This document shows positions 4,944 through 24,898 of a stretch of 64,000 bases of DNA, piece by piece. Source of the stretch: Allocoprobacillus halotolerans. GTDB taxonomy: Bacteria; Bacillota_I; Bacilli_A; Erysipelotrichales; Coprobacillaceae. The stretch is from contig NZ_CP101620.1 in NCBI RefSeq assembly GCF_024399475.1, forward strand, positions 787,608 to 851,607, written 5' to 3'. The notes beneath the pieces are model-generated. The model had not been told where the DNA came from. It made no database searches and was given only the letters and a program-made list of their open reading frames with translations. The translations under genes and the position numbers were made by a program. The first letter of the stretch is position 1; every line of letters begins with the position of its first letter.

Positions 4944-5652
4944 TGTCATCATCCTCCAACTCCAAGAATACATCTTCGAGCGATTCATCACCAATCACAT
5001 CTTGAGTTTTTCCACTGACAATTAATTTTCCTTGTTTGATAATTGCAATTTTATCACATAGCTTTTCAGCTACTTCCAAGACATGGGTAGAAAAGAAAAT
5101 AGCTCCACCTTTATCACAATGTTCACGCATTAATTGTTTAAGTATATGTGATGCTTTAGGATCCAATCCAACAAAAGGTTCATCCATTAAAATTAATTGA
5201 GGCTGATGCATAAAAGCAGCAATAATCGCTAACTTTTGTTTCATACCATGTGAATAGGCACTAATAGGTTGTGCTAAATCACTTGTCAATTCAAATAAAT
5301 CTCCATATTTTTGAATCAACTGTTCCCTTTGTTGTTTAGATACCTGATAGACATCGGCTACAAAATTTAAATATTGAATACCTGTTAAATATTCATATAA
5401 ATCTGGATTATCCGGTATATAAGCCATGACACGCTTACATTCTAAAGCATGACTCTTCATTGATTTTCCATCAACAATAATCTTTCCTTCATCAAAAGGC
5501 ATAATCCCAGCCACAGCTTTTAGTGTCGTTGTTTTACCGGCACCATTATGACCAATAAAGCCATAGATATGTCCTCTTTCAATATGCAATGATAAATCAT
5601 CAACAGCTTTATATTGATCATATGTTTTTGTTAAATGTTCAATCTTTAACAT
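4924..5652 (-). CDS. ABC transporter ATP-binding protein
   Basis: A 242-residue ABC ATPase. Motifs: Walker A GHNGAGKTT (about residues 34-42), Q-loop region AYIPDNPDLYEYLT, signature YSHGMKQ, Walker B LILMDEPFVGLDP and switch histidine FSTHVLE. AGAGAGGAA precedes the ATG. It energises the overlapping permease at 3342-4943. EcsA- or YthP-like ATPases are the closest type by motif and length. Export of peptides or lipids is possible but not shown. Confidence 0.88.
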   Translation of the reverse strand: MLKIEHLTKTYDQYKAVDDLSLHIERGHIYGFIGHNGAGKTTTLKAVAGIMPFDEGKIIVDGKSMKSHALECKRVMAYIPDNPDLYEYLTGIQYLNFVADVYQVSKQQREQLIQKYGDLFELTSDLAQPISAYSHGMKQKLAIIAAFMHQPQLILMDEPFVGLDPKASHILKQLMREHCDKGGAIFFSTHVLEVAEKLCDKIAIIKQGKLIVSGKTQDVIGDESLEDVFLELEDDDNANETY

Positions 5653-5722
5653 AACAATAAATTCCTCTCTTTCTTAAACAATTATTAAAATTATTTATAT
5701 TATTATTTTATATCTTTGTCTT

Positions 5723-6362
5723 TTACTCGTCAATATCTTTCGTCTTTTCTTTAAATAAAAAATAAGAATAAACATAAATGACAATTGTCATAGCTATTAT
5801 TGTTACCATCAAAACAATATAACTATATGAAAATTGAGTCAAAGCACATACAGCAATAATAAGACCTATAACAACAAAACCAAAACCAGATATTTTATGT
5901 GTTTTCTTCCAAACATACTCATTTGCTAATGTCCATGGTGTTTTGATTCCAAAAAATAGTTTTGGGGTATTTTAGGAAAATAATTACCCATTCCAATAAG
6001 CAAAGCAGCCACCAACAATAAGATAAACTGTTCACCATCTTGATGAGGGTTAAAAGTCATATATTCGAAAAAAACTGCCATGACCAAAAAGAATAATGTA
6101 AGTCCACATTGAAATAAACGATATGTTTTCTTTCTTTTTCAAGATTACATCTTTTAGGATCAATTCTTTTGGTAAGAGACATTTCATAATAAACGAGGAC
6201 TGGTAAAAACACTATAATCAAAAATAAATAACGACTTCCATAACCATCTACTTCCCAGTTTGCATCCCAATGAACTGGTACAGTTTCAGGCATCAAAAAG
6301 ACACCTACAGTCAACAGCAACGTCATTATCCATAAAACATAGTCAAAAACTTTTATCTTCAT
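5723..6362 (-). CDS. SdpI/DUF1648-like membrane protein, two apparent frameshifts
   Basis: Membrane protein with the SdpI-type layout: DUF1648 at the N-terminus (MPETVPVHWDANWEVDGYGS, about residues 24-43) and a C-terminal SdpI domain (KLFFGIKTPWTLANEYVWKKTHKISG). Two shifts split the frame, near 6130 (A run) and near 5975 (C run). Adding one base at each restores 213 residues ending at the TAA at 5723. SdpI of Bacillus subtilis gives immunity to the SDP toxin and pairs with the ArsR-type repressor SdpR. Here the ATG overlaps the stop of the upstream ArsR gene, matching that pair. An immunity role here is inference. Confidence 0.7.
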
Positions 6363-6628
6363 TTTTCATCCCCCATATCTATAAAATTCATAAACCATTT
6401 CATGACCTCCTGAAAAACAGACATATCAATACTATAAACAATATTTTGTCCTTGTCTTTCATCAACAATTAAACCACTAGATTTCAAAATAGATAAATGA
6501 TGTGATATAGATGGTTTAGTCATTTGAAAACAATCTGCAATTTCACCTGCATTTAAAGGTTTCTCTTGTAATAATTCTAAAATCCTTCTTCTTGTTGGAT
6601 CACTTAACGCTTTAAATGCATCACCCAT
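6359..6628 (-). CDS. ArsR/SdpR-like autorepressor
   Basis: An 89-residue winged-helix ArsR-family regulator. The recognition region is NAGEIADCFQMTKPSISHHL (about residues 27-46). No metal-binding cysteine pair is visible, which fits the SdpR subgroup more than metal sensors. AAGGAGGGAG precedes the ATG. Its stop overlaps the start of the SdpI-like gene, so the two are co-translated, and a palindrome just upstream of its start suggests autoregulation. Confidence 0.85.
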   Translation of the reverse strand: MGDAFKALSDPTRRRILELLQEKPLNAGEIADCFQMTKPSISHHLSILKSSGLIVDERQGQNIVYSIDMSVFQEVMKWFMNFIDMGDEK

Positions 6629-6648
6629 GCATCTCCCTCCTTTTTAAT

Positions 6649-6676
6649 ATTTAGATATTTGTCTAAATATCTAAAT
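6649..6676. promoter_or_regulatory. Probable ArsR/SdpR operator
   Basis: Arms ATTTAGATATTT and AAATATCTAAAT form a perfect 12-bp inverted repeat around four bases, 21 bases upstream of the ArsR start codon. This is the expected place and shape for an operator of this family. Identification is from position and symmetry only. Confidence 0.7.
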
Positions 6677-6718
6677 ACATTTTATCACTTTTCATTGTAT
6701 TGTCAAACAAAAGAAAAA

Positions 6719-6741
6719 GAACTATACAAAATGTATAGTTC
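6719..6741 (-). terminator. Rho-independent terminator of ptsH
   Basis: Hairpin GAACTATACA / TGTATAGTTC followed on the minus strand by a T-rich tract, just downstream of the ptsH stop. Confidence 0.8.
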
Positions 6742-6761
6742 CATGTATTTGAAGCCTAATA

Positions 6762-7031
6762 TTATTCAGCAACTTTTTGTTCTTTAATAACTTTAGCAAT
6801 TGAAGCGATTACGTCTTTTTCATCATCACCTTCAGCTACGATTTCTACAGTAGCTTTAGTAGGTACACCTAAAGACATAACACCCATAATTGACTTCAAA
6901 TTAACTTCTTTACCATTGTAACATAATTTGATATTGCTAGTGAATTTGCTAGCTTGGTTTACTAAGATAGTTGCAGGTCTAGCATGTAATCCTACTGGAT
7001 CTGAAACTACAAAAGATAATTTTTCTGCCAT
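6762..7031 (-). CDS. ptsH: Phosphocarrier protein HPr
   Basis: Cytoplasmic phosphocarrier of the sugar phosphotransferase system: it takes phosphate from enzyme I and passes it to sugar-specific EIIA domains. The 89 residues carry the active-site histidine in GLHARPA (near residue 16) and the regulatory serine in LKSIMGVMSLG (near 47), the target of HPr kinase in Firmicutes. AAGGAGG precedes the start. Enzyme I is not adjacent; the gene stands alone between terminators. It would serve the PTS permease at 60089-61414 and take part in CcpA-mediated catabolite control. Confidence 0.96.
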   Translation of the reverse strand: MAEKLSFVVSDPVGLHARPATILVNQASKFTSNIKLCYNGKEVNLKSIMGVMSLGVPTKATVEIVAEGDDEKDVIASIAKVIKEQKVAE

Positions 7032-7202
7032 CTTATTGACTCCTCCTTAATAATTTATAGTATTATTATAACACATTTCCATTACTTTTCCATACATTTT
7101 CAAAAGAAATTAATACGCTTACATAATATTTTTTTGTCAAGTCTTTTCACAATCTTTTTCTAACAATTTTCATTTATCAAAAAGTATTGATGTAAACAGA
7201 AA

Positions 7203-7229
7203 AAAGAAAACTTTCAGTAAGTTTTCTTT
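7203..7229 (-). terminator. Rho-independent terminator
   Basis: Hairpin AAAGAAAACTT / AAGTTTTCTTT overlapping the stop codon of the methyltransferase-like gene, followed by a T tract on the minus strand. Confidence 0.7.
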
Positions 7230-8280
7230 AAAACATTTTTTGAGCAACCACTAAAAATCTATGGGTTGTCATTTCAAAATATGAATGATCTTTAATCTCT
7301 TTTAATGCCTGCAAATAAAACATTTGATATCTATTGATATTGGCAAAATCAGATGAAACTTTCGTAAAATATTGATAAATCGCTTGAATACTATGAAAAC
7401 GAATTGTTCCATAGTCCTCAAATTTATCCACAACACGCATACCAATACTTTCTAAAGTTTGTACACAACTTTCAGCGTCCCATTTTCCTTTCATCTGAAA
7501 AGGCATGTATAAACGGACAAATTCTTTTAAATTATCTGTTCCATGTTGATTCACAACAAAATAGCCACCTTTTTTTAACACTCTCAAAATTTCACTTTTA
7601 TCATAATTGCATTCTTGACACATCACTGTGTCAATTTTTTCATCTTTAAAAGGCATTTTTCCTGTTGGCGTTAAAGTTGTAACTTTAACAGATGAACCAT
7701 CCACAAATTGTCCTTGAACTCTTTGTGTGTCTGTATAAGGTTCAATAATAAACATCGCTTCTGTATCATCTTTAAACTGACTGGCAAATTTTCCAGCATC
7801 TACACTCATAACTGCCAAATGATCCTCAGGATTGATATAACGTCTTAATATCTCACTTTCATTATAGCTTGGTAAAGTGACTGTATAATCATTTTCAAAC
7901 TCTGCACCTGGCGAAAAATGCTGCAATTCATTTTGTAATAAATGAGCATCCTCAATTTGACGACGACATCTTTTTTTACTATAAACCATAATAGCATACT
8001 GTACAACGGCATCAGCTACAATTCCCATCGCTAAAAACAATACAAAGTAAACAAACCAGTTAAGCGTAAATAGTTCGACTGGTGATGAAATCAAATAACA
8101 AATTAAACAAAGAAAAACCATATAACCAACACGATTATAACTAAATGGTTTATCCAATGATAAAAACCAATTCATATTGTTCGCTTTTTCCATTTTACTT
8201 CTTGTCATTTCAAAAAAGACAACCTGCATCAAAAACAAAATACCTATAAAAATTAACAGCAATACAATCAAATATTCCAT
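7228..8280 (-). CDS. Membrane-anchored SAM-methyltransferase-like protein
   Basis: A 350-residue protein. The N-terminal 110 residues hold about three membrane helices. The rest resembles a class I SAM-dependent methyltransferase: LAVMSVDAGKFAS, then MPFKDEKIDTVMCQECNY (motif IV-like), then ILRVLKKGGYFVVNQHG (the post-motif strand typical of Methyltransf_11). The glycine-rich motif I (GxGxG) is not clear, so activity is uncertain. It starts 9 bases after the lipoprotein stop, so the two are probably co-transcribed. Substrate unknown. Confidence 0.6.
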   Translation of the reverse strand: MEYLIVLLLIFIGILFLMQVVFFEMTRSKMEKANNMNWFLSLDKPFSYNRVGYMVFLCLICYLISSPVELFTLNWFVYFVLFLAMGIVADAVVQYAIMVYSKKRCRRQIEDAHLLQNELQHFSPGAEFENDYTVTLPSYNESEILRRYINPEDHLAVMSVDAGKFASQFKDDTEAMFIIEPYTDTQRVQGQFVDGSSVKVTTLTPTGKMPFKDEKIDTVMCQECNYDKSEILRVLKKGGYFVVNQHGTDNLKEFVRLYMPFQMKGKWDAESCVQTLESIGMRVVDKFEDYGTIRFHSIQAIYQYFTKVSSDFANINRYQMFYLQALKEIKDHSYFEMTTHRFLVVAQKMF

Positions 8281-8289
8281 ATAAACTCC

Positions 8290-9792
8290 TTAATTAATAT
8301 TTTTTCCTTCAATTGTATAGTAATGATGATACTCATCAGAGAAATAACCATCCTTATGGAATGTTAAATCTCCTTCAACAGAAAATAATTCTTCCATATC
8401 ATTATTTATATCATAAATATAACTTCTACCATTTTTATTCAACATCATATAATTTTGATCATTATATTCAATCAATGGTGTTGCAGGTAAAGATGTATAT
8501 TCGATAGGGAAAACTTCTTCTCCTGTAATATCAATAATACCATACATACCATTTTCATTATAAACCGCATAATATGAACTGTCTATGTACTCCATACGAT
8601 AATATGTCTTTTTTGTCAAGATTTGTCCTTTTTCATCAATTAATGAATAACCCTCTTCGCTCGCCTTTACAATAGCTCTATGACTAGCATCAAAGGGTTG
8701 AGCTTCAATATAGGTTTGTTCAATTTCTTGTTTATTACTAAAATTGTAATAAACATATCCTTTATTTTGAACATAGACTGGGAAAACCTCAAAATACAAT
8801 TGTTTTACTTCTGGATAAAGTTGACAATTTTCAAGTGTTCCAAGAGGTACTCCACTTTTATAAATATGATGTGGTCCATAAACATCATCTTCACGAATCA
8901 CATATGTTTGGGCATCAAAATAATAAGAATTGATGAGAGTTGGAACACCACCAATTGGATAAATATAAGTCTTATCTTGCGAAGTTAAAACAATGTTATC
9001 CTTATCATCAAAATAAGCATCATTAATTGCAATATTATTTTGTGAAGCCTCTTTCTTTTCAAAATCAATATATATCATACTCTTTAATTTTTCATCATTC
9101 AAAATACATCCTTTATTATTTTGAATTAAAAACTGATATGTTCCTTTATCAATTTGAATATCAAAGCTTTTCTCATCATCACTAACATTATAATAAAAAT
9201 GATTTTTATCTTTAAAACCAACCACTACTGATTTTGCACTAGCATATTGACTGACATAACTCACAACATCTTGACCTTTATAAAGTTCTTCGCCATTTTG
9301 ATATAAGACAATATACTCCTTATCTTTTTGAATAACTGGCAATCCACTTTTCATAATTGCTGTTGAATTATCAGCCTGATATAAAATTTCTCCCTCATCA
9401 TTTAAAACATAGAGATTTTCTTGGACAAATTGATTTATCAATACTGATTCTTTATCATCTTTATTTTCCTGATCTTCTTTGTTTTCTACTTTTTTAGTCG
9501 CATAAAACATATCATCAACACTTTCTAATGTTGCATATTCACCAAATGGAATGATTTCTTCACCATCTCTTGAAATATATCCCACTTGTTCATTTGTGTT
9601 TGTAACTATATATCCTTGACTACCAATCTTTTGAAAAGATTGATATTCATAATCTGTTATTTGTTCACCTTCAGAATTATATAAAGCATTTAATTGCTGA
9701 TCATTTGTTAACATAAAATAACTCATTTTTTGATTTTGATGACATCCCGTCAACAATAAAAGTGCCATGAGTCCAACGAATAATTTCTTCAT
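8290..9792 (-). CDS. WG-repeat-containing lipoprotein
   Basis: A 500-residue secreted lipoprotein: signal peptide with lipobox LLTGC (Cys about residue 17) and then repeated WG-type beta units, for example QVGYISRDGEEIIPFGEY, YSLIDEKGQILTKKTYY and MYGIIDITGEEVFPIEY. WG repeats form beta-rich surface modules of unknown ligand. AGGAGGAAT precedes the start. The adjacent membrane methyltransferase-like gene follows in the same operon. Function unknown. Confidence 0.8.
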   Translation of the reverse strand: MKKLFVGLMALLLLTGCHQNQKMSYFMLTNDQQLNALYNSEGEQITDYEYQSFQKIGSQGYIVTNTNEQVGYISRDGEEIIPFGEYATLESVDDMFYATKKVENKEDQENKDDKESVLINQFVQENLYVLNDEGEILYQADNSTAIMKSGLPVIQKDKEYIVLYQNGEELYKGQDVVSYVSQYASAKSVVVGFKDKNHFYYNVSDDEKSFDIQIDKGTYQFLIQNNKGCILNDEKLKSMIYIDFEKKEASQNNIAINDAYFDDKDNIVLTSQDKTYIYPIGGVPTLINSYYFDAQTYVIREDDVYGPHHIYKSGVPLGTLENCQLYPEVKQLYFEVFPVYVQNKGYVYYNFSNKQEIEQTYIEAQPFDASHRAIVKASEEGYSLIDEKGQILTKKTYYRMEYIDSSYYAVYNENGMYGIIDITGEEVFPIEYTSLPATPLIEYNDQNYMMLNKNGRSYIYDINNDMEELFSVEGDLTFHKDGYFSDEYHHYYTIEGKNIN

Positions 9793-9890
9793 TCTTATTC
9801 CTCCTCGCCCCTAGTATATCATAAAATTTATCTTTTAGCATTGTTTTTTCAAATAATCAGACTATAATAGGAAGTAAGAGGTGAGATTCA

Positions 9891-10442
9891 ATGAATGAAA
9901 CATTACAAACAATTGCACAAAGAAAAAGTTGTCGAAGTTATCAAAATAAAATGATTAAAGACGAAGAATTACAAATGCTTTTACAAGCCGCTATTCAAGC
10001 TCCTAGCGCAATGAATAGACAGCTTTGTGAAGTCTATGCCATTACAAATCCCGCTTATATTGATGAACTCACTGAAACGATTAAAAAAGTCAGTGAAGAA
10101 CGTGGCGAAAAGAAACCTGATGGTTACCACTTTTCATATCACGCTCCTATCTTGTTGATTGTCAGTGGACCTGAATATGATTCAAGACGTATAGAAGATG
10201 GTAGCTGTATGTTACAAAACATCTTTTTAGCTGCAACAAGTCTCAATATTGGTTCTTGTTGGATTAATCAATTGCGTGATACCCAAAACGTAGATGAAGT
10301 CAGAAATGTTCTTAACAAATTTGGTATTCCAAATAATCATCAAGTTGTAGGTTGTGCTGCCATTGGTTATATCAAACAAGATACTCCAGCTAAAGAAAAG
10401 AAACAAGAAAGGATTCATATTGTGGAATCGAATAGGGGCTAA
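9891..10442 (+). CDS. Nitroreductase family protein, C-terminus altered by an intron
   Basis: FMN-dependent nitroreductase fold of 183 residues: AQRKSCRSYQNKMIKDEEL at the N-terminus (FMN phosphate contact), APSAMNRQ, then NIGSCWINQLRD. AAGAGGTGAG precedes the ATG. The group II intron on the other strand begins at 10427, inside the last codons. Without it the frame would end in IHIVE and a TGA formed across the junction with 15866. With it the protein gains SNRG before a TAA supplied by the intron. The loss is only of the natural stop, so the enzyme is probably active. Confidence 0.88.
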   Translation: MNETLQTIAQRKSCRSYQNKMIKDEELQMLLQAAIQAPSAMNRQLCEVYAITNPAYIDELTETIKKVSEERGEKKPDGYHFSYHAPILLIVSGPEYDSRRIEDGSCMLQNIFLAATSLNIGSCWINQLRDTQNVDEVRNVLNKFGIPNNHQVVGCAAIGYIKQDTPAKEKKQERIHIVESNRG

Positions 10443-16691: not shown

Positions 16692-18515
16692 TTATCCATT
16701 CATTTTTCTTGTATAAGCTTTTCTTCTTTCATTTTCTGTTAATAAACGTTTTCTTAAACGAATATTTTGAGGCGTTACTTCCACAAGTTCATCATCATTA
16801 ATATAATCTAAACAAGCTTCCAAGTTAAAGATTCTTGGTTTCTTTAAGACAACAGTTGAATCTTTTGTAGAAGAACGTGTATTTGTTAATTGTTTTCCTT
16901 TTGTCACATTGACAACCAAATCATTGTCACGACTATGTTCTCCAACAATCATACCTTCATAAACATCCACACCTGGTCCTACAAACATGACACCACGATC
17001 TTCAACACCACCAAGCGCATAAGCAGTTGTTTGTCCTGTATCAATAGAAACAAGGACACCTAGTTGTCTTTCACCAACAGCGTCACCTTCCATTGGACGA
17101 TAATCTAAGAATGAATGATTGATAATTCCATAACCTTTTGTCATTGTTAAAAAGTTTGTCATGAAACCAATTAAACCACGAGATGGAATAATATAATGAA
17201 CTTTTGTCATACCATTATCAGATTCCATATTTTCTAAGCTTCCACGTCTAAATCCTAAAGATTCAATAATACTTCCAATACATTCATCAGGTGCTTCAAT
17301 AAAGACTTCTTCATAAGGTTCACATTTAACACCATCAATTTCTTTAATAATAACTTTTGGTTTTGATACCTGTAATTCAAAACCTTCACGACGCATATTT
17401 TCAATCAAGATTGATAAATGTAATTCTCCACGTCCTGAAACAATCCATTCTTCAGCATTAGGAACTCTTTCAATTTTTAAAGATACATCTCTGTTTGTTT
17501 CTTTGAATAATCTTTCTTCAACTTTACTTGCTGTAACAAATTTTCCTTCTTTTCCTGCAAAAGGAGAAGTATTTGTTCCAAAGACCATTTGAATTGTTGG
17601 TTCATCGACACGTAATAATGGTAATGGTTCTTCATATCCCATTGTACAAACTGTTTCACCAACGCCAATATCAGCAAGCCCCGCAATCGCAACAATATCA
17701 CCAGCACTCGCTTCATCAATTTCAATTCTATGCAATCCTAAAAATCCAAATAGTTTTTGAACCCTAAACTGTGTCTTTGTGCCATCCGCTCTTAAACAAA
17801 CAACAGTTTCATTCACTTTCACTTTTCCTCTTTGAATACGACCAATTCCAATACGTCCAACATAATCATTGTAATCAAGTAATGCTGGTTGGAATTGTAA
17901 TCCACCTTCTTCATCAACTAAAGGTGCAGGAATTTCTTTGATAATCATATCAAATAAACAATCCATATTAGGCACTTGCGTTGCAATATCAGGATCTAAA
18001 CTAGAAGTTCCCATTAAGGCAGATACAAAGACAGTTGGGAAATCTAACTGATTATCATCTGCTCCAAGTTCCATAAATAATTCTAATACTTCATCCATAA
18101 CTTCATTAATACGAACAACTGGACGGTCAACCTTATTAATCACAACAATTGGTTTGACTTTTGCTTCTAAGGCTTTCTTTAAAACGAAACGTGTTTGAGG
18201 CATTGTTCCTTCATAGGCATCAACAACCAACAAAACACCATCTACCATATTCATAATACGTTCTACTTCTCCACCAAAATCGGCATGTCCTGGTGTATCC
18301 ATAATATTAATACGATAGTCTTTATAATTAATAGCAGTATTTTTTGCTAAAATTGTAATTCCACGTTCTCTTTCAATCGCATTTGAATCCATTGCTCTTT
18401 CAGCAATCTGTTCATTATCTTTTAAAGTTCCAGATAATTTTAATAATTGATCTACTAAAGTTGTTTTTCCATGATCAACGTGTGCAATAATTGCTATATT
18501 TCTAATGTTATTCAT
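16692..18515 (-). CDS. typA: Ribosome-associated translational GTPase TypA/BipA
   Basis: A 607-residue translational GTPase, the usual BipA length. G-domain motifs: P-loop [15 protein letters not shown] (about residues 11-25), switch [17 protein letters not shown] and NKVDRP; then elongation-factor domains and the BipA-specific C-terminus with [20 protein letters not shown]. It acts on 70S ribosomes, in stress adaptation and ribosome assembly. AAAGGAGTG precedes the ATG. It is a single-gene unit with its own terminator, and the frame is intact. Confidence 0.97.
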
Positions 18516-18640
18516 GTTTTTTCACTCCTTTTTTGCCTTTTTGATTATAACACAATTCATTGAAAAGACAATACAAAATACTTTGACTTTAACGATAAAA
18601 AAGCATGAATCATATCATTTTTATTTCTTAATCAAAAAAG

Positions 18641-20116
18641 TTATTCATACAGACGATATATTGTTGCAAAATTTTTTTGAAAATAACACAATAACGAAAG
18701 ATAATTGATACACACAACAATGAATAGTATCGTCCATTCTATTGGATAGGCATATAGAATCATCAAAGATACCAACATCATTCCTATTATTTCATAGAAT
18801 AATAATTTGAATTGATTTTTATAAGCTATACCTAATGATGTCATAATGAGGATATATTTTATTTGATAGCGTTGCATTTTTTGAAAATAGAAAGATACAA
18901 TAAGTAAAGTGACACCAAAAAGTAATATTCGATAAAAAATCACAATAACATCTTTTTCCATTGTCAAGGTTTCTCGATTTTCTTTTTCCATATATAAAGA
19001 TTGAATATTTTGTATTTCATATTGTGCATATAATTGACGCATTAATGACGGATAAACATATGGATCATCAAAAGTAATGAGATAACCAACTTGATGCTTT
19101 TCTAGTAATGGATAATCTTTTTTGATATAACAAGTATCTTTATTTTCATAATATGTTATTGTTGTATTGTTCAATTGAATACTTTTTTGTTTATAAGTGA
19201 GTGGAAAGGCTTGTTTAACAAAAGTATAGTCTTGATATTGATAAAGATAATAAGGTTCAATTTGACAATTGATATTTTGAATATCAGGTTTTTCTAAATG
19301 AGAAACAATAATATTTTGTCTTGTGCTATTAACCAGCTTTGATTGAATAGATTTTTCTTTTTGAAAAACAAAACTTCCAATAAGAAAATAGAAACATGTC
19401 AATATCATCAAAAAACAAAATGTATAACGAAATGGTAAAGAATGTATACGCATCTTTAAAAGGGACTTTTGACAAATAGAAGCTGGTGTTAAAGGTAATG
19501 AATGATGTGAGATTGTTTTTTTAATACATTCTAATTGTTTATTTTCAAAATGATAATGACAATCACTTTGTTGAATTAATTCTTGATCATGGGTCACAAT
19601 GATAATGATTTTCCCTTTTGCTTTTAACTGCTTTAATAACTCTAAAACTTTCTCTTTCATATGTGTATCTAAAGCTGACGTTGGTTCATCTAACAAATAA
19701 ATAGCTTTATCTTGTAAATAACCACCATACAATAAAAGATATTGTTTCTCTCCTAAAGAAAAATCTTTGATTTTCTTATTTAAAGGAAAAGGTACATCAT
19801 ATGATGATTTTCCTGCCATCATATCCAAGTAATCTTGTAAAATCATATCATCATATAAAGATAATTCCTGTAATAAAAAATAAATATATTGATAACGAAA
19901 AAGATGTGTCTGTGAACTTTGTAAATCTATGACTTGCTGATGATATTGATATTTTCCTGTTCCTGTTTTTAATAATGCTAAATAATAAAGTAACGTTGTT
20001 TTTCCAATGCCATTCGTTCCTGTAATTACAGATATTTCTCCTTCATAAAACTGAGCATCTATAACGCCTAAAACTTTCTTATCCCACGTGATGTTCATAT
20101 TTTCGATACAAAGCAT
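18641..20116 (-). CDS. ABC transporter, fused ATPase-FtsX-type permease (second half-transporter)
   Basis: About 491 residues. N-terminal ATPase (1-200): Walker A GTNGIGKTT (33-41), signature FSLGEKQ, Walker B AIYLLDEPTSAL and switch THDQE. A membrane helix near 230-250, an extracellular region of about 130 residues and three C-terminal helices follow: a MacB/FtsX-like layout with the ATPase in the same chain. The ATG at 20116 (MLCIENMN), after TAGGAG, is chosen; it overlaps the end of the first transporter gene. It probably pairs with the product of 20079-21917 and exports or extrudes the secreted protein at 21955-22368 (inference). Confidence 0.75.
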   Translation of the reverse strand: MLCIENMNITWDKKVLGVIDAQFYEGEISVITGTNGIGKTTLLYYLALLKTGTGKYQYHQQVIDLQSSQTHLFRYQYIYFLLQELSLYDDMILQDYLDMMAGKSSYDVPFPLNKKIKDFSLGEKQYLLLYGGYLQDKAIYLLDEPTSALDTHMKEKVLELLKQLKAKGKIIIIVTHDQELIQQSDCHYHFENKQLECIKKTISHHSLPLTPASICQKSLLKMRIHSLPFRYTFCFLMILTCFYFLIGSFVFQKEKSIQSKLVNSTRQNIIVSHLEKPDIQNINCQIEPYYLYQYQDYTFVKQAFPLTYKQKSIQLNNTTITYYENKDTCYIKKDYPLLEKHQVGYLITFDDPYVYPSLMRQLYAQYEIQNIQSLYMEKENRETLTMEKDVIVIFYRILLFGVTLLIVSFYFQKMQRYQIKYILIMTSLGIAYKNQFKLLFYEIIGMMLVSLMILYAYPIEWTILFIVVCINYLSLLCYFQKNFATIYRLYE

Positions 20117-21917
20117 AAATATCAACTCCTACTGGTAAAACATACAACAACAAAATAGGCAAAATAATCATTCCCCACCAAAATAGCAACAATGGATAGT
20201 GAATAGTGTAAAGAAATAAGTTGACACATACATATAAAACACCATAAAACCAGAAGAATATCAAAATCTCTAATAAATATTTCTTTATAATCCAAACTAA
20301 AGTTTGATTGAAAGATAATTGATAATGCATAAGTTTATCATATTCCTGCAAACGTAATCGTTTTTGTCCAAAGATAGTATATACAAGCACAATCATTAAC
20401 AATCCTAATGGTATAATACAAATCAAAGATAATATTTTAACAAACTGTAAGACTGTATCAGCTATCTGATTTAATGAATAAGCACAATAAAATTCTAATG
20501 TCGAAGCAACTTTTTCAACTTGACTTTGAATAGATTGATACTTTTCTAAGTGATCTATTTTTGCAAAATAAGCATTAGGTTGATAATTGATATTATACTG
20601 TTCAAACAAAGATAACATCGTTGTTTGATCCAAATATGCAAAACAATAATCACGACTTATAAAAAGTCCATTCTCATCTAAAACACCTTTTATATCAAAA
20701 GTCATAGTCATTTCCTGATATTCAATTTCTCTGCCCTCTATATCTTTCCATATGACTTCATCATTTTCATCTAAAATCGCTGTTTGCATCCCATCAATTG
20801 TATCGCTTTGTTGAATAGGGATGGCTATATTTATTTTCAATTGCATATTTTCTAAATCATGATAAGACATATCCAATTCCTCTAAGAACCATTTGGATAA
20901 AATAAGTCCTTGTTGATGGGATGTTCGATATTCTAAAGAATCATCCATTTTAGAAAAAGATGTATAACCATTAATAAAATACTGTTTATCATTAGATAAT
21001 GTTTTTTCAACTTCTTGTTTACCATCCATCACAACAACAGAATCATAATAGACTTCATGATTTTGATTTCTTTTTTGTTTTAAACAAAAAGGAATATAGG
21101 GTTGAAAATCACTTAAACCCTCAATCTTCTTTAAATCTTGAATTTGTTGATTCGTCAATGATTGGTAATAAATATCATATTGTTGATAATAGGGATGATA
21201 AACATCCGTATTATTCATGACAAAGACTTCCTGTGACATATTTTTTGCAAGTTGATTGTTCATATCAGCATAAGTCATTTCACGATAATATTGTGTAAAA
21301 AATATAAACAACAAACATATGGACATCATTACAAAAATAAGTATCTGTTTGATACGATTTTTATTTTGATAAACCCATATATCTTTCCATGATATTTTTG
21401 AATGTTTCTTAGGTGATAAAAAATCTAATTCTAGCTTAATATCTTGATTTTCTATATCAATAACTTCATCACATTGATCGATGATTTCTTTTTGATGTGT
21501 CACAATAAGAATCGTTTTATTCTCTTGCAAAGATATTTTTTGACATAGAGGAAACAAAAAATTCAAAATATCATGATTTAAACCACTCAATGTTTCATCA
21601 AAAATAATCACTTCACTTTCACTATATAACGCTCCTACAATCACAGCCATTTGCCTTTGACCTAAAGATACTTGTGAAGGATAGAGTTGTCCTATTTCCT
21701 GTAATTCTAATAAACGATTAATCTGTTGATTTTGAAAATTGTAACCAAAAAACTGTAAGTTCTTTTCAATAGTATATTGTTCTATCAAGAAATTATTTTG
21801 TTGGATATAGACTATCTTTTGATGGTGATGTTGTAGAAAAATCTGATTCATTAATGTGGTTTTGCCACAGCCATTTTTTTCAACCACTGCATATATCTTT
21901 CCTTGTTTAATCCTCAT
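20079..21917 (-). CDS. ABC transporter, fused ATPase-FtsX-type permease (first half-transporter)
   Basis: A 612-residue fusion like its neighbour. The ATPase is short at the N-terminus: it opens with MRIKQGKIYAVVEKNGCGKT, so the first strand and A-loop are missing and the first Walker A glycine is a glutamate (E13-K-N-G-C-G-K-T). The signature is VSLGQRQ, Walker B VIIFDETLSGL and the switch VTHQKE. One helix near 190-210, a large extracellular domain (about 215-480) and three or four C-terminal helices follow. AGGAGG lies 8 bases before the ATG, so the short start is real. It lies downstream of the secreted protein gene and a weak terminator. Confidence 0.75.
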   Translation of the reverse strand: MRIKQGKIYAVVEKNGCGKTTLMNQIFLQHHHQKIVYIQQNNFLIEQYTIEKNLQFFGYNFQNQQINRLLELQEIGQLYPSQVSLGQRQMAVIVGALYSESEVIIFDETLSGLNHDILNFLFPLCQKISLQENKTILIVTHQKEIIDQCDEVIDIENQDIKLELDFLSPKKHSKISWKDIWVYQNKNRIKQILIFVMMSICLLFIFFTQYYREMTYADMNNQLAKNMSQEVFVMNNTDVYHPYYQQYDIYYQSLTNQQIQDLKKIEGLSDFQPYIPFCLKQKRNQNHEVYYDSVVVMDGKQEVEKTLSNDKQYFINGYTSFSKMDDSLEYRTSHQQGLILSKWFLEELDMSYHDLENMQLKINIAIPIQQSDTIDGMQTAILDENDEVIWKDIEGREIEYQEMTMTFDIKGVLDENGLFISRDYCFAYLDQTTMLSLFEQYNINYQPNAYFAKIDHLEKYQSIQSQVEKVASTLEFYCAYSLNQIADTVLQFVKILSLICIIPLGLLMIVLVYTIFGQKRLRLQEYDKLMHYQLSFNQTLVWIIKKYLLEILIFFWFYGVLYVCVNLFLYTIHYPLLLFWWGMIILPILLLYVLPVGVDIYALYRKYEHHVG

Positions 21918-21931
21918 ATAATATTCCTCCT

Positions 21932-21956
21932 AAAAAGCAGGAATAATTCCTGCTTT
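21932..21956 (-). terminator. Attenuating terminator after the secreted protein gene
   Basis: Hairpin AAAGCAGGAAT / ATTCCTGCTTT with a short T run on the minus strand, overlapping the secreted protein's stop and ending just before the transporter's ribosome site. Partial read-through would give much more small protein than transporter, as in bacteriocin operons. Confidence 0.7.
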
Positions 21957-22368
21957 AATAATTATGTATTAAAGGTTGTACAACTGAAGCAGTAGATGCA
22001 ACATATGATCCGGCATGTACATATTTAAAAGTACATTTTGCATAAGGATTTGTTTTTCCTGATCGCTTTGTCATTTTAATATTGTCAAAATAATTAAACC
22101 AGTTATCATCTGTCTGCGTTGTACTTAATCCACCAACCGTAACCCCAGAAGAAGTATAGTTACCACTTGAATAGAAAGTAAGTCTTACCCCTGTACTAGA
22201 CTCTCTATAACTTGATTTATATGTTATATCCGCTAACGGCATTATATCATCAGCCGCTGCAACTGGAATAATAAATAACATACATAGTAAAACTGTAAAT
22301 ATAAATATTTTTTTGTAATAATTACACTTTACTTTCCTTGTTGACTTCAAACCATACTTAATTATCAT
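21955..22368 (-). CDS. Small secreted protein of a putative peptide system
   Basis: A 137-residue protein with an N-terminal basic stretch, a hydrophobic signal segment (KKIFIFTVLLCMLFIIPVAA, about residues 19-38) and a likely cleavage after VAAA. The exported part is about 97 residues, rich in Ser, Thr, Tyr and Gly (YKSSYRESSTGVRLTFYSSG). It has one cysteine and no lipobox. I do not recognise the family. The arrangement of a small secreted protein, two ABC fusions and an adjacent LytTR two-component pair resembles lactococcin-972-type and other bacteriocin loci. The start codon has no clear ribosome site; an internal start is possible. Confidence 0.6.
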   Translation of the reverse strand: MIIKYGLKSTRKVKCNYYKKIFIFTVLLCMLFIIPVAAADDIMPLADITYKSSYRESSTGVRLTFYSSGNYTSSGVTVGGLSTTQTDDNWFNYFDNIKMTKRSGKTNPYAKCTFKYVHAGSYVASTASVVQPLIHNY

Positions 22369-22533
22369 AGTTCATTTGATTTGTGTGAACCTTCTAATTT
22401 TAAATTTAAATCTTCCCTTTTTACGAACAATCTCACCTATGTTAATTTATTTTAACGGAAATGAAATTTCTGACTCTTTTTGAATATTTTCTTAATCACC
22501 TCCTGTTAACCATTATAAATAAATGACGAACAA
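22369..22533 (-). promoter_or_regulatory. Leader region of the secreted protein gene
   Basis: Non-coding region between the kinase terminator and the secreted protein. It contains a strong ribosome-site-like AACAGGAGGTG (about 22496-22506) not followed by a good start codon, and a CCGTTAA element downstream of it that could be one half of a LytTR-type site. The promoter for the secreted protein and transporters is expected here, probably the target of the adjacent response regulator. Confidence 0.35.
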
Positions 22534-22565
22534 AAAGATGGTTAATCCGCTGATTGACCATCTTT
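22534..22565 (-). terminator. Rho-independent terminator of the LytTR/kinase unit
   Basis: Arms AAAGATGGT / ACCATCTTT followed by TTG-rich sequence on the minus strand, overlapping the stop of the kinase-like gene. It separates the regulators from the secreted protein operon. Confidence 0.75.
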
Positions 22566-23430
22566 ATTGGCTAAAAGGTAATGTTATGAAGTAAATATAG
22601 TCATTTGAAAACTTATTTTCAACAATGGATATATCATGAGAAATATCAATTTGATAATGAAGGGGTTGTAAAGAAACCAAACGACAAAGATAAGACTCTT
22701 GATTCATTTGAATATAAAGCTTGATTTCATTGTGAGGTTTTCTCGCATCTTCTAGTAATTGATAAATAAAGACAGTATAATTTTCATGCCAATATTTTTC
22801 AATTTTACAAAGATAATATTGAAAAGGAATATGTTCTTTATGATACAAACTTAATTCTGTTTGAAACATATGATTGAGCGAAGGAATATTTGATATTGTT
22901 ATTGCAGTGTCCTGATAAGATTCCTGCGTTAATGCTTGTAGATGATGAATGGCTTTTTGAGAATCATTCATGCGAATATCGTTCATAACTTGATATAACT
23001 TTTGATTATAATCATGGCGTAAAACATGAATATAACTTTCATAAATTTCTTTTTCTATCTGGTTAATATATTTTTGTTGATTGACTTTATCCATATGTAA
23101 TCTTTGAATAAAAGCATAGAAATAAATAATGAAAGCTATGAAAGATAATATAAAAAGTAAACCAAATAAGAAAACAATCTTTGTATAATAATGAATACTT
23201 ATAAAAACCTGTACAAAATAACTTAATGAAAAACTCAAGGCATATATAATCATGGCTGTGATGCAGGCAAAATGACGTTTGTGATGATAGAAATAAAAAC
23301 TGAGTATCAAAGATAAACCAGATACGAAAACAAACAAAAATTCGTAGATTTGAGAAGGCAAAAATACAACATGAAAAACATAGAGATAAGCTAAATAGCC
23401 CAATCCTGATATGATTGCTATTATTTTCAT
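22564..23430 (-). CDS. AgrC-like sensor histidine kinase with degenerate catalytic domain
   Basis: A 288-residue membrane protein: about five helices in residues 1-108, then an AgrC-type phosphoacceptor helix with H139 in HVLRHDYNQKL. The ATP-binding half is abnormal. The N-box position reads QLLEDARK instead of LLDNAIEA, and no G1/G2 glycine motifs follow before the stop. Autophosphorylation by the usual mechanism is therefore doubtful; it may be a pseudokinase or phosphatase, or may act with another kinase. It starts one base into the response regulator's stop (overlap at 23430), so the two are co-translated. Confidence 0.75.
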   Translation of the reverse strand: MKIIAIISGLGYLAYLYVFHVVFLPSQIYEFLFVFVSGLSLILSFYFYHHKRHFACITAMIIYALSFSLSYFVQVFISIHYYTKIVFLFGLLFILSFIAFIIYFYAFIQRLHMDKVNQQKYINQIEKEIYESYIHVLRHDYNQKLYQVMNDIRMNDSQKAIHHLQALTQESYQDTAITISNIPSLNHMFQTELSLYHKEHIPFQYYLCKIEKYWHENYTVFIYQLLEDARKPHNEIKLYIQMNQESYLCRLVSLQPLHYQIDISHDISIVENKFSNDYIYFITLPFSQ

Positions 23431-24089
23431 TATGAAACAATCCTATTAAAATATTCTCTTACTTCTTTGATACATTTTCTAGAAATAGGTATATATTGTC
23501 CCATCATAATCAGTTGCGTTCTATACATTCCCTGAATATGATCTTTATTAATAATATAAGACTGATGAATACGCATAAACTTTTCTGATGGTAATTCCTT
23601 CATTAATTCTTTAAATGTTCCCCAATATGAAATATCCTTTTCTTCCATGTGAATTGTGATTTTCCCACCATAAACTTCTATATAATGAATATCATTCATA
23701 TCAACCATAATCTTTTGTTTTTGAGATATAACTGTTAAAAAATGAGCTGTTTCAGCTTTAAACATATCCATAGCTATCTTTAAATCATCTTCAAAATGAG
23801 ATTTACGAATCAAATAAAAAGGATTATAAACTTGAGTGTTAAAGATATAAGACTGATGATGTGTCATAAACATAAAAATAGCCTGTGGATGAACTCTTTT
23901 TAATTCTCTTGCAATGTCTTGACCACTTGGTTTCATCTCTAAATCTAAAAAATAAACATCGTAATTTTGATAAAACTTTGATGTTATTTCTTTAGGTTTT
24001 AATATCATAACATCTTCAAAATATTGATTTATATATTGAGCAGCTTGTTTTGCTTCTTTTCTTGAGTCATCAACAATCACAACTTTCAT
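23430..24089 (-). CDS. LytTR-family response regulator (AgrA-like)
   Basis: A 219-residue regulator: receiver domain (1-115) with acidic pair D7-D8, phosphoacceptor D49 in YFLDLEM and K near 95 in YLIRKSHFE, followed by a LytTR DNA-binding domain (about 120-215) with IHYIEVYGGKITIHM and FMRIHQSYIINKDHI. Such regulators control bacteriocin and quorum-sensing operons by binding paired direct repeats. It is the first gene of the unit that ends with the degenerate kinase. Its likely target is the adjacent secreted-protein/ABC operon (inference). Confidence 0.88.
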   Translation of the reverse strand: MKVVIVDDSRKEAKQAAQYINQYFEDVMILKPKEITSKFYQNYDVYFLDLEMKPSGQDIARELKRVHPQAIFMFMTHHQSYIFNTQVYNPFYLIRKSHFEDDLKIAMDMFKAETAHFLTVISQKQKIMVDMNDIHYIEVYGGKITIHMEEKDISYWGTFKELMKELPSEKFMRIHQSYIINKDHIQGMYRTQLIMMGQYIPISRKCIKEVREYFNRIVS

Positions 24090-24144
24090 CTATGAACACC
24101 TTACCTTTATAAACAGATTATAGCACAAACAATATATAAATAAA

Positions 24145-24169
24145 AACAGAGATATTATTCATCTCCGTT
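24145..24169 (-). terminator. Rho-independent terminator
   Basis: Arms AACAGAGAT / ATCTCCGTT with a T tract on the minus strand, at the end of the alpha/beta hydrolase gene. Confidence 0.7.
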
Positions 24170-24898
24170 ATTTGTTAAAAAATGATATGTAAGTTGAATC
24201 ACCTGATTGATATGTTCTAAACTATCATAGTTATGAGTTGCACCTTCAATAGGATAAAAAACAGGATGTGAAAAACCTTTTAAATATTTTTTTGATATAT
24301 CATAAGGAACAGTTGCATCTTTTGTTCCATGAAGTATCATTAAATCATTTTGATAAATATCTAAATCGTGATACAAATCTCTTGATGTGATATCTTCTAC
24401 AAACGCATGAGAGATTTCAAAACCACTATGATCATAATATGGTGTTTCATCCACATGTCCTTTTAAATATTCAATGGCTTCTGGAAGATTTAAGGCTGGT
24501 GCCCATAAACACATTTTAGAAATATCTTGTGGGTATCTTTTCGCCACTTCACTGGCAATCGCTCCACCCATGGAATGTCCTAATAAATAAATCTCTGTCA
24601 CACAATCCATGTTTTTGACTTCTTGAAAAATTTTGATTGCTGAATCAAGTTCATTTTCAAAAGTCATATCCCTAAATGGTAAATCAGATTGTCCACTACC
24701 TAAAAAATCCATACGCAATGAACCAATATTTTGTTTTTCTAACATTCTTGATAATTGCACATAAGAAAATTTTGTACCGGTGCATTGTCCTGTAAAACCA
24801 TGAAAAATAATACACACTGGAAACTGAGAAACATCTGGTTTATGAAAAAAACCACGCATTGTTCCTAATTCTGTTTCTATTTCATAATATTTTTGCAT
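24155..24898 (-). CDS. Alpha/beta hydrolase (esterase)
   Basis: A 247-residue serine hydrolase. Oxyanion loop FHGFTGQ (about residue 33), nucleophile elbow GHSMGGAIAS (Ser near 108), acid in ILHGTKDATVPY (Asp near 195) and histidine in EGATHNYDS (near 222). It resembles the Lactobacillus LJ0536/Butyrivibrio Est1E cinnamoyl-esterase group, which release hydroxycinnamic acids from plant esters. The ATG lies 1 base after the stop region of the SGNH hydrolase gene, so both probably form one transcript. Substrate not proven. Confidence 0.82.
   Translation of the reverse strand: MQKYYEIETELGTMRGFFHKPDVSQFPVCIIFHGFTGQCTGTKFSYVQLSRMLEKQNIGSLRMDFLGSGQSDLPFRDMTFENELDSAIKIFQEVKNMDCVTEIYLLGHSMGGAIASEVAKRYPQDISKMCLWAPALNLPEAIEYLKGHVDETPYYDHSGFEISHAFVEDITSRDLYHDLDIYQNDLMILHGTKDATVPYDISKKYLKGFSHPVFYPIEGATHNYDSLEHINQVIQLTYHFLTNNGDE

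Follow-up and report, generated by a model that had tools for sequence, protein, structure and literature searches.

A five-gene island of Allocoprobacillus halotolerans resembling lactococcin-972 loci: a candidate competition locus with an orphan secreted protein and a two-part transporter

Loci of the lactococcin 972 family, including lcn972-orf2-orf3, scbABC and the mediterrocin mdc cluster, encode a small unmodified protein secreted through the Sec pathway, followed by a membrane protein and an ATPase. The antimicrobial action of bacteriocins of this family is exerted through lipid II. Lactococcin-972-like proteins exit through Sec, while the B and C functions have been described as unverified (PMC11796350), and immunity is the role ascribed to orf2-orf3 (PMC4055356). 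The secreted gene is sometimes missing with the remainder kept, as for scbA in pneumococcus (PMC11796350), and the secreted proteins are very divergent, mediterrocin sharing 18 % identity and a similar predicted fold with lactococcin 972 (PMC12345188). Using PF09683, genuine lactococcin-972 proteins were found in three genomes of the bacterial family that includes A. halotolerans (L125, L126 and L127). The gene order in L126 and L127 is LytTR response regulator (RR), kinase (HK), bacteriocin, FtsX membrane protein and ATPase, with a transposase-like insertion between the HK and bacteriocin genes of L127. Matches to TIGR01653, TIGR01654 and TIGR03608 were obtained at both loci, with only TIGR03608 passing its curated cut-off.

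The 64,000-nucleotide stretch of A. halotolerans DNA analysed here (the window) contains a self-contained five-gene insertion, which equips this gut-type bacterium with a small secreted protein (S) together with dedicated regulators and a membrane pump in two parts. The earlier note had likened its layout to that of bacteriocin loci, and the order of RR, HK, secreted protein and permease/ATPase genes, shared by the window and the loci L096 and L115, is indeed that of the genuine lactococcin-972 loci L126 and L127. The island resembles the lactococcin 972 family further in the divergence of its secreted proteins and their occasional absence. The transporters differ: lactococcin-972 loci encode one tandem-FtsX protein (TIGR01654/DUF1430) and one free ATPase (TIGR03608), whereas in the window each FtsX half is a protein in its own right with a fused ATPase. 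Our leading interpretation, for and against which we find the case about evenly balanced, is that the island is a lactococcin-972-like interbacterial competition locus, with a secreted protein and a transporter of undescribed families.

Extent, insertion site and control sequences of the island

Five adjacent open reading frames are encoded on the minus strand of the window (18641-24089), as the earlier note had claimed. These specify the LytTR response regulator (RR; 23430..24089; 219 aa), an AgrC-like membrane kinase (HK; 22564..23430; 288 aa), S (21955..22368; 137 aa) and two ATPase-FtsX half-transporters, large (20079..21917; 612 aa) and small (18641..20125; 491-494 aa, with an ATG at 20116), the latter overlapping large by about 45 nt. 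The flanking genes, coding for an abhydrolase (24155-24898) and TypA (16692-18515), are adjacent in four congeners, with an intergenic gap of only about 115-135 bp and intact flanks, and, in comparison with these empty sites, homology of the window resumes at 18585-18591 and ends at 24135-24179. Since the flanking genes nearly abut in the four congeners, the intervening ~5.5 kb is a single insertion in a variable site (18592..24135, with the right edge placed only to about 24135-24177). Judged from these alignments, the island comprises exactly these five genes, gained or lost together. The division into two units made previously thus holds for transcription, given two terminator-like hairpins, but not for gain and loss. 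A bacteriocin derived from a mobile element was considered and set aside, as none of the ORFs within the island was recognised as a transposase or integrase. As it recurs in other genera and its site is empty in congeners, the five-gene module is more than a chance arrangement, and is almost certainly real and conserved.

In another genus, the abhydrolase-typA site is occupied by a different pair, the large protein of which is about 20 % identical to that of the window. This pair lies beside a PadR gene in L090 and beside an S gene in L084; the typA of L090 is 90 % identical to the window typA, and the abhydrolase is 67-69 % identical at the other-genus site. The site is empty in genome G026 and contains unrelated genes in G022. 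Because the same site accommodates a different pair, unrelated genes or nothing, it is an insertion hotspot. The insert in G022 (L128; G022:C27, 1699-4847) encodes a secreted protein of 512 aa along with two RpiR-like regulators.

A terminator-like hairpin (attenuator) with a 10-bp stem and a dG of -12.2 kcal/mol is located between S and large (21931..21956, minus strand), and hairpins with T runs occur between these genes in the window, L094, L096, L097 and L120. The RR-HK unit is closed by another terminator-like hairpin (22531..22565, minus strand), read from the sequence as AAAGATGGT...ACCATCTTTTT and absent from the list produced by the consensus scan. S has a separate leader region. Upstream of 22368, where binding of the regulator had been suggested as a check, LytTR-box pairs did not exceed chance in a scan against shuffled sequences, and a sigma-70 promoter scan scored below the shuffle mean. 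Between HK and S, a perfect Shine-Dalgarno-like AGGAGGTGAT (22495-22504, minus strand), which lacks a well-spaced start codon, is possibly the remnant of a lost small gene.

The regulatory pair and the transporter pair

The LytTR domain of the RR scores 77.6 bits, over the Pfam cut-off, while the receiver domain, at 23 bits, falls below its own. By alignment, the RR is homologous to its counterparts at the other transporter-pair loci and at the lactococcin-972 loci. The HK has about four transmembrane (TM) segments and, in an alignment with nine kinases of comparable loci, retains the DHp histidine (RHDY) and has lost the N and G boxes. With these boxes absent and no HATPase domain matched in Pfam, the label of pseudokinase given to it previously is fair. 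In the same alignment, the kinases of L096, L095, L093, L126 and L127 are canonical, with both boxes retained, while those of L086, L089 and L115 are degenerate like that of the window. A LytTR regulator paired with an AgrC-like membrane sensor is also characteristic of AgrC/AgrA and ComD/ComE, although the window sensor differs from AgrC and ComD in its about four TM segments and its degenerate catalytic domain.

Both half-transporters carry their own N-terminal ABC ATPase (Pfam, NCBIfam), as the earlier note had proposed. For both ATPases TIGR03608, the lactococcin-972 ABC model, was the best of 18,950 models, with scores (95.6 and 64.1 bits) below its cut-off of 254.85. The permease parts did not match TIGR01654/DUF1430. 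Their relation to the lactococcin-972 membrane protein is a distant FtsX one only: that protein, from its hydrophobicity, reads as a tandem of FtsX halves, and hhalign aligns it to the small permease at 94 %. The window permeases also fall under the Pfam FtsX cut-off (PF02687; no match for large or small), the family member L100 scoring 31.6 bits against the cut-off of 25.5, and the permease profile matches YtrF weakly. The window large protein matches the family profile at 2.2e-102. A back-translation search for close relatives of the window transporter found none. Large is missing about 25 N-terminal ATPase residues of its relatives and has an altered Walker A motif (EKNGCGKTT, with the first Gly replaced), while the motifs of small are intact, so that the two likely form an asymmetric pair.

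The predicted structure of large, modelled from ten relatives (pLDDT 66.7, moderate confidence), consists of an ATPase, TM1, a beta-rich extracytoplasmic domain and TM2-4. Full-length Foldseek matches of this model were to MacB chains only, with low TM-scores (0.24-0.28) because the placement of the domains is uncertain. The PDB-linked matches cover almost only the ATPase, so that the absence of other folds among them is uninformative. The window transporters are thus predicted to have a MacB-type architecture, with an N-terminal ATPase and a 4-TM permease with a large domain between TM1 and TM2, as in the type VII transporters MacB, LolCDE and FtsEX. Unlike these, the window encodes two unequal partner chains, probably forming a heterodimer, and unlike MacB it has no MacA or TolC partners. 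PADLOC matches to mad3 and AriA were discarded as generic ATPase matches.

The secreted protein and its counterparts in other genomes

The signal peptide of S can be read in the sequence (KK-IFIFTVLLCMLFIIPVAAA|DD), leaving a mature protein of about 98 aa; the earlier description of a small secreted protein therefore stands, with a mature length of about 98 rather than 97 residues. S has no Pfam match and no significant NCBIfam match, a PDB sequence search retrieved nothing, and no homologues were found in 148 relatives, 392 genomes of the phylum, genome contigs, viral contigs or plasmids, the near-threshold matches being partial and some containing internal stops. Both the statement that the secreted protein is not recognised and the description as undescribed, the latter applying to S and the permease halves within the libraries searched, are therefore upheld. 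A predicted structure of mature S (pLDDT 34) was discarded. As S matches neither PF09683 nor TIGR01653, unlike lactococcin 972, it is considered to work like a member of that family and is not filed as one.

Related transporter pairs were detected in 24 of the 43 genomes of the bacterial family (profile search, E<=0.001, weak matches included). A sample of 395 genomes from the class yielded 13 with such pairs at E<=1e-15, and most of these 13 again belong to the family. The RR-HK-S-large-small order of the window is intact in L096, from the same genus, and in L115, from another genus, while L120 has the order RR-S-large-small. S, large and small occur with a nearby LytTR gene in L086, L100, L101 and L087, and S and large with no LytTR gene seen in L084, L094, L097 and L112. 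RR, HK and the pair occur without S in L095, L093 and L089; L095 has the RR, HK and pair in common with L096 (large 70 % identical), in which alone S is found. Other pair loci are associated with PadR/DUF6120, XRE or OmpR regulators, and many lack S. An S-like gene is present directly upstream of large at 10/36 loci compared to 5/204 control genes (Fisher p=3e-6), as counted by an automatic rule that left out L084 and L120 and over loci that are not all independent. LytTR regulators were found within 5 kb at 11/36 loci, after removal by hand of two OmpR-type matches. Refutation had been tied to homologues of S that are always unlinked from the transporters, which is not literally applicable to a protein with no detectable homologues; its positional equivalents, however, are linked to the transporters.

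The S-like proteins of these loci have a Sec signal, mature lengths of 81-112 aa, a Thr/Ser-rich composition and between zero and two cysteines. S and thirteen of its positional equivalents or neighbours had no family match in Pfam, and S and nine of these had none in NCBIfam at E values up to 10. Pairwise similarity among the S proteins is at chance (mean Z 0.14), with the exception of the L100/L101 orthologues. The best Z values of about 3 (window versus L034 and L112 versus L120) are within what 105 comparisons allow, and a forced alignment was rejected as evidence of relatedness. Given these chance scores and the failure to match PF09683 or TIGR01653, a common antimicrobial fold is unsupported. 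The orthologues of L100 and L101 are 86 % identical, with a dN/dS of about 0.37, compared to about 0.2 for large and small and 0.03 for a neighbouring gene. By these ratios, S is a real and fast-evolving coding gene, at least in this pair.

Further arrangements of the transporter pairs were observed. A second, decayed copy occurs in the same genome as the window (L015; C1:234000-252000, 5446-10115), in which small is intact (620 aa), large is frameshifted and the S-like gene upstream is truncated to 71 aa. Among the secreted proteins encoded near this copy is one resembling a C92 peptidase. In L031 (G022:C29, 5743-15001) two divergent pairs flank PadR and DUF6120-like genes, and a LytTR RR-HK lies at a distance of about 3.4 kb. 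PadR and a small protein with one TM segment (identified as DUF6120, PF19615, for L034, and similar in L037, L092 and L117) accompany the pairs of these four loci and constitute a second recurring regulatory setting. Two near-duplicate proteins of ~320 aa with one N-terminal TM, which are possibly detached extracytoplasmic domains, adjoin two transporter pairs in L098 (G013:C23, 7344-9293).

Function of the island and alternative readings

The earlier note left open an antimicrobial, a signalling or an envelope-stress function. The comparative evidence favours the first, as the RR-HK-secreted-transporter order is that of lactococcin-972 loci and S is hypervariable and is missing from L095, where the regulators and transporter remain. 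S is accordingly the likely antagonist on comparative grounds, and the heterodimeric MacB-type pair the likely means of self-protection; killing, immunity, the target of S and control by LytTR are what we infer. With somewhat more doubt than attaches to the reading of the island itself, the family may carry competition islands of an undescribed class, which combine Sec-secreted proteins unrelated in sequence with a heterodimeric ATPase-FtsX immunity transporter, are controlled by LytTR regulators and form a parallel to the lactococcin-972 loci while being distinct from them.

Since many related pairs lack S and lie beside PadR/DUF6120, XRE or OmpR-type regulators, the transporter family has uses without S, which speaks against the competition reading, as do the failure of S to match PF09683 or TIGR01653, the chance-level similarity among S proteins and the LytTR-box scan. 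Such pairs, as in BceAB-like modules, and the predicted MacB/Lol-type fold would fit an island for envelope stress or antimicrobial detoxification, in which a foreign peptide would be detected by the RR and HK and cleared by the MacB-type pair, S being a non-killing secreted accessory such as a decoy or carrier. BceAB-BceRS modules likewise combine a two-component system with an ABC transporter of the FtsX type, but consist of a 10-TM BceB, a separate BceA and an OmpR-type regulator, while the window has a LytTR regulator, two ATPase-fused 4-TM halves and an adjoining secreted protein. Detoxification also leaves unexplained the hypervariability of S, its position directly upstream of large and its occupation of the slot that lactococcin-972 loci of this family give to the bacteriocin, and we consider it unlikely. 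A signalling role, with the AgrC-like membrane protein recognising S or part of it as a ligand and the pair exporting or recycling it, is improbable. An AgrC-like kinase and LytTR regulator do adjoin the secreted gene, and the degenerate catalytic domains of the kinases of the window, L086, L089 and L115 suggest unusual sensing, but S has a Sec signal rather than a double-glycine or AgrD-type leader, and RR and HK are kept where S is absent (L095, L093 and L089). Furthermore, no AgrB-like ORF occurs among the island ORFs of at least 40 aa, although a very short AgrD would fall below this size. That S is an adhesin-like or host-facing protein, linked to the transporter merely through insertion at a hotspot, would accord with the different inserts of the abhydrolase-typA site (unrelated genes in G022), but S and large are found linked in many different genomic locations, making this very improbable.

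Under the competition reading, the AgrC-like membrane protein would sense a cue and the LytTR regulator would turn on S, with most transcripts ending at the hairpin between S and large, so that S would be made in excess over the transporter. S would exit via Sec and, with the cell envelope as its plausible site of action, inhibit close relatives without the island. Large and small would together form a heterodimeric MacB-type mechanotransmission transporter, pulling S, or envelope targets to which it is bound, off the producer's own membrane and thereby conferring immunity; loci with the transporter and without S would be immunity-only.

If this is true, the island points to a whole family of candidate antagonists, secreted proteins that would escape bacteriocin searches based on profiles, since the libraries searched contain no model for either S or the permease. 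It would also provide a direct test of whether the FtsX-type transporter of lactococcin 972 serves immunity or export, with the sister loci that lack S and the unoccupied site of the congeners as ready-made controls.
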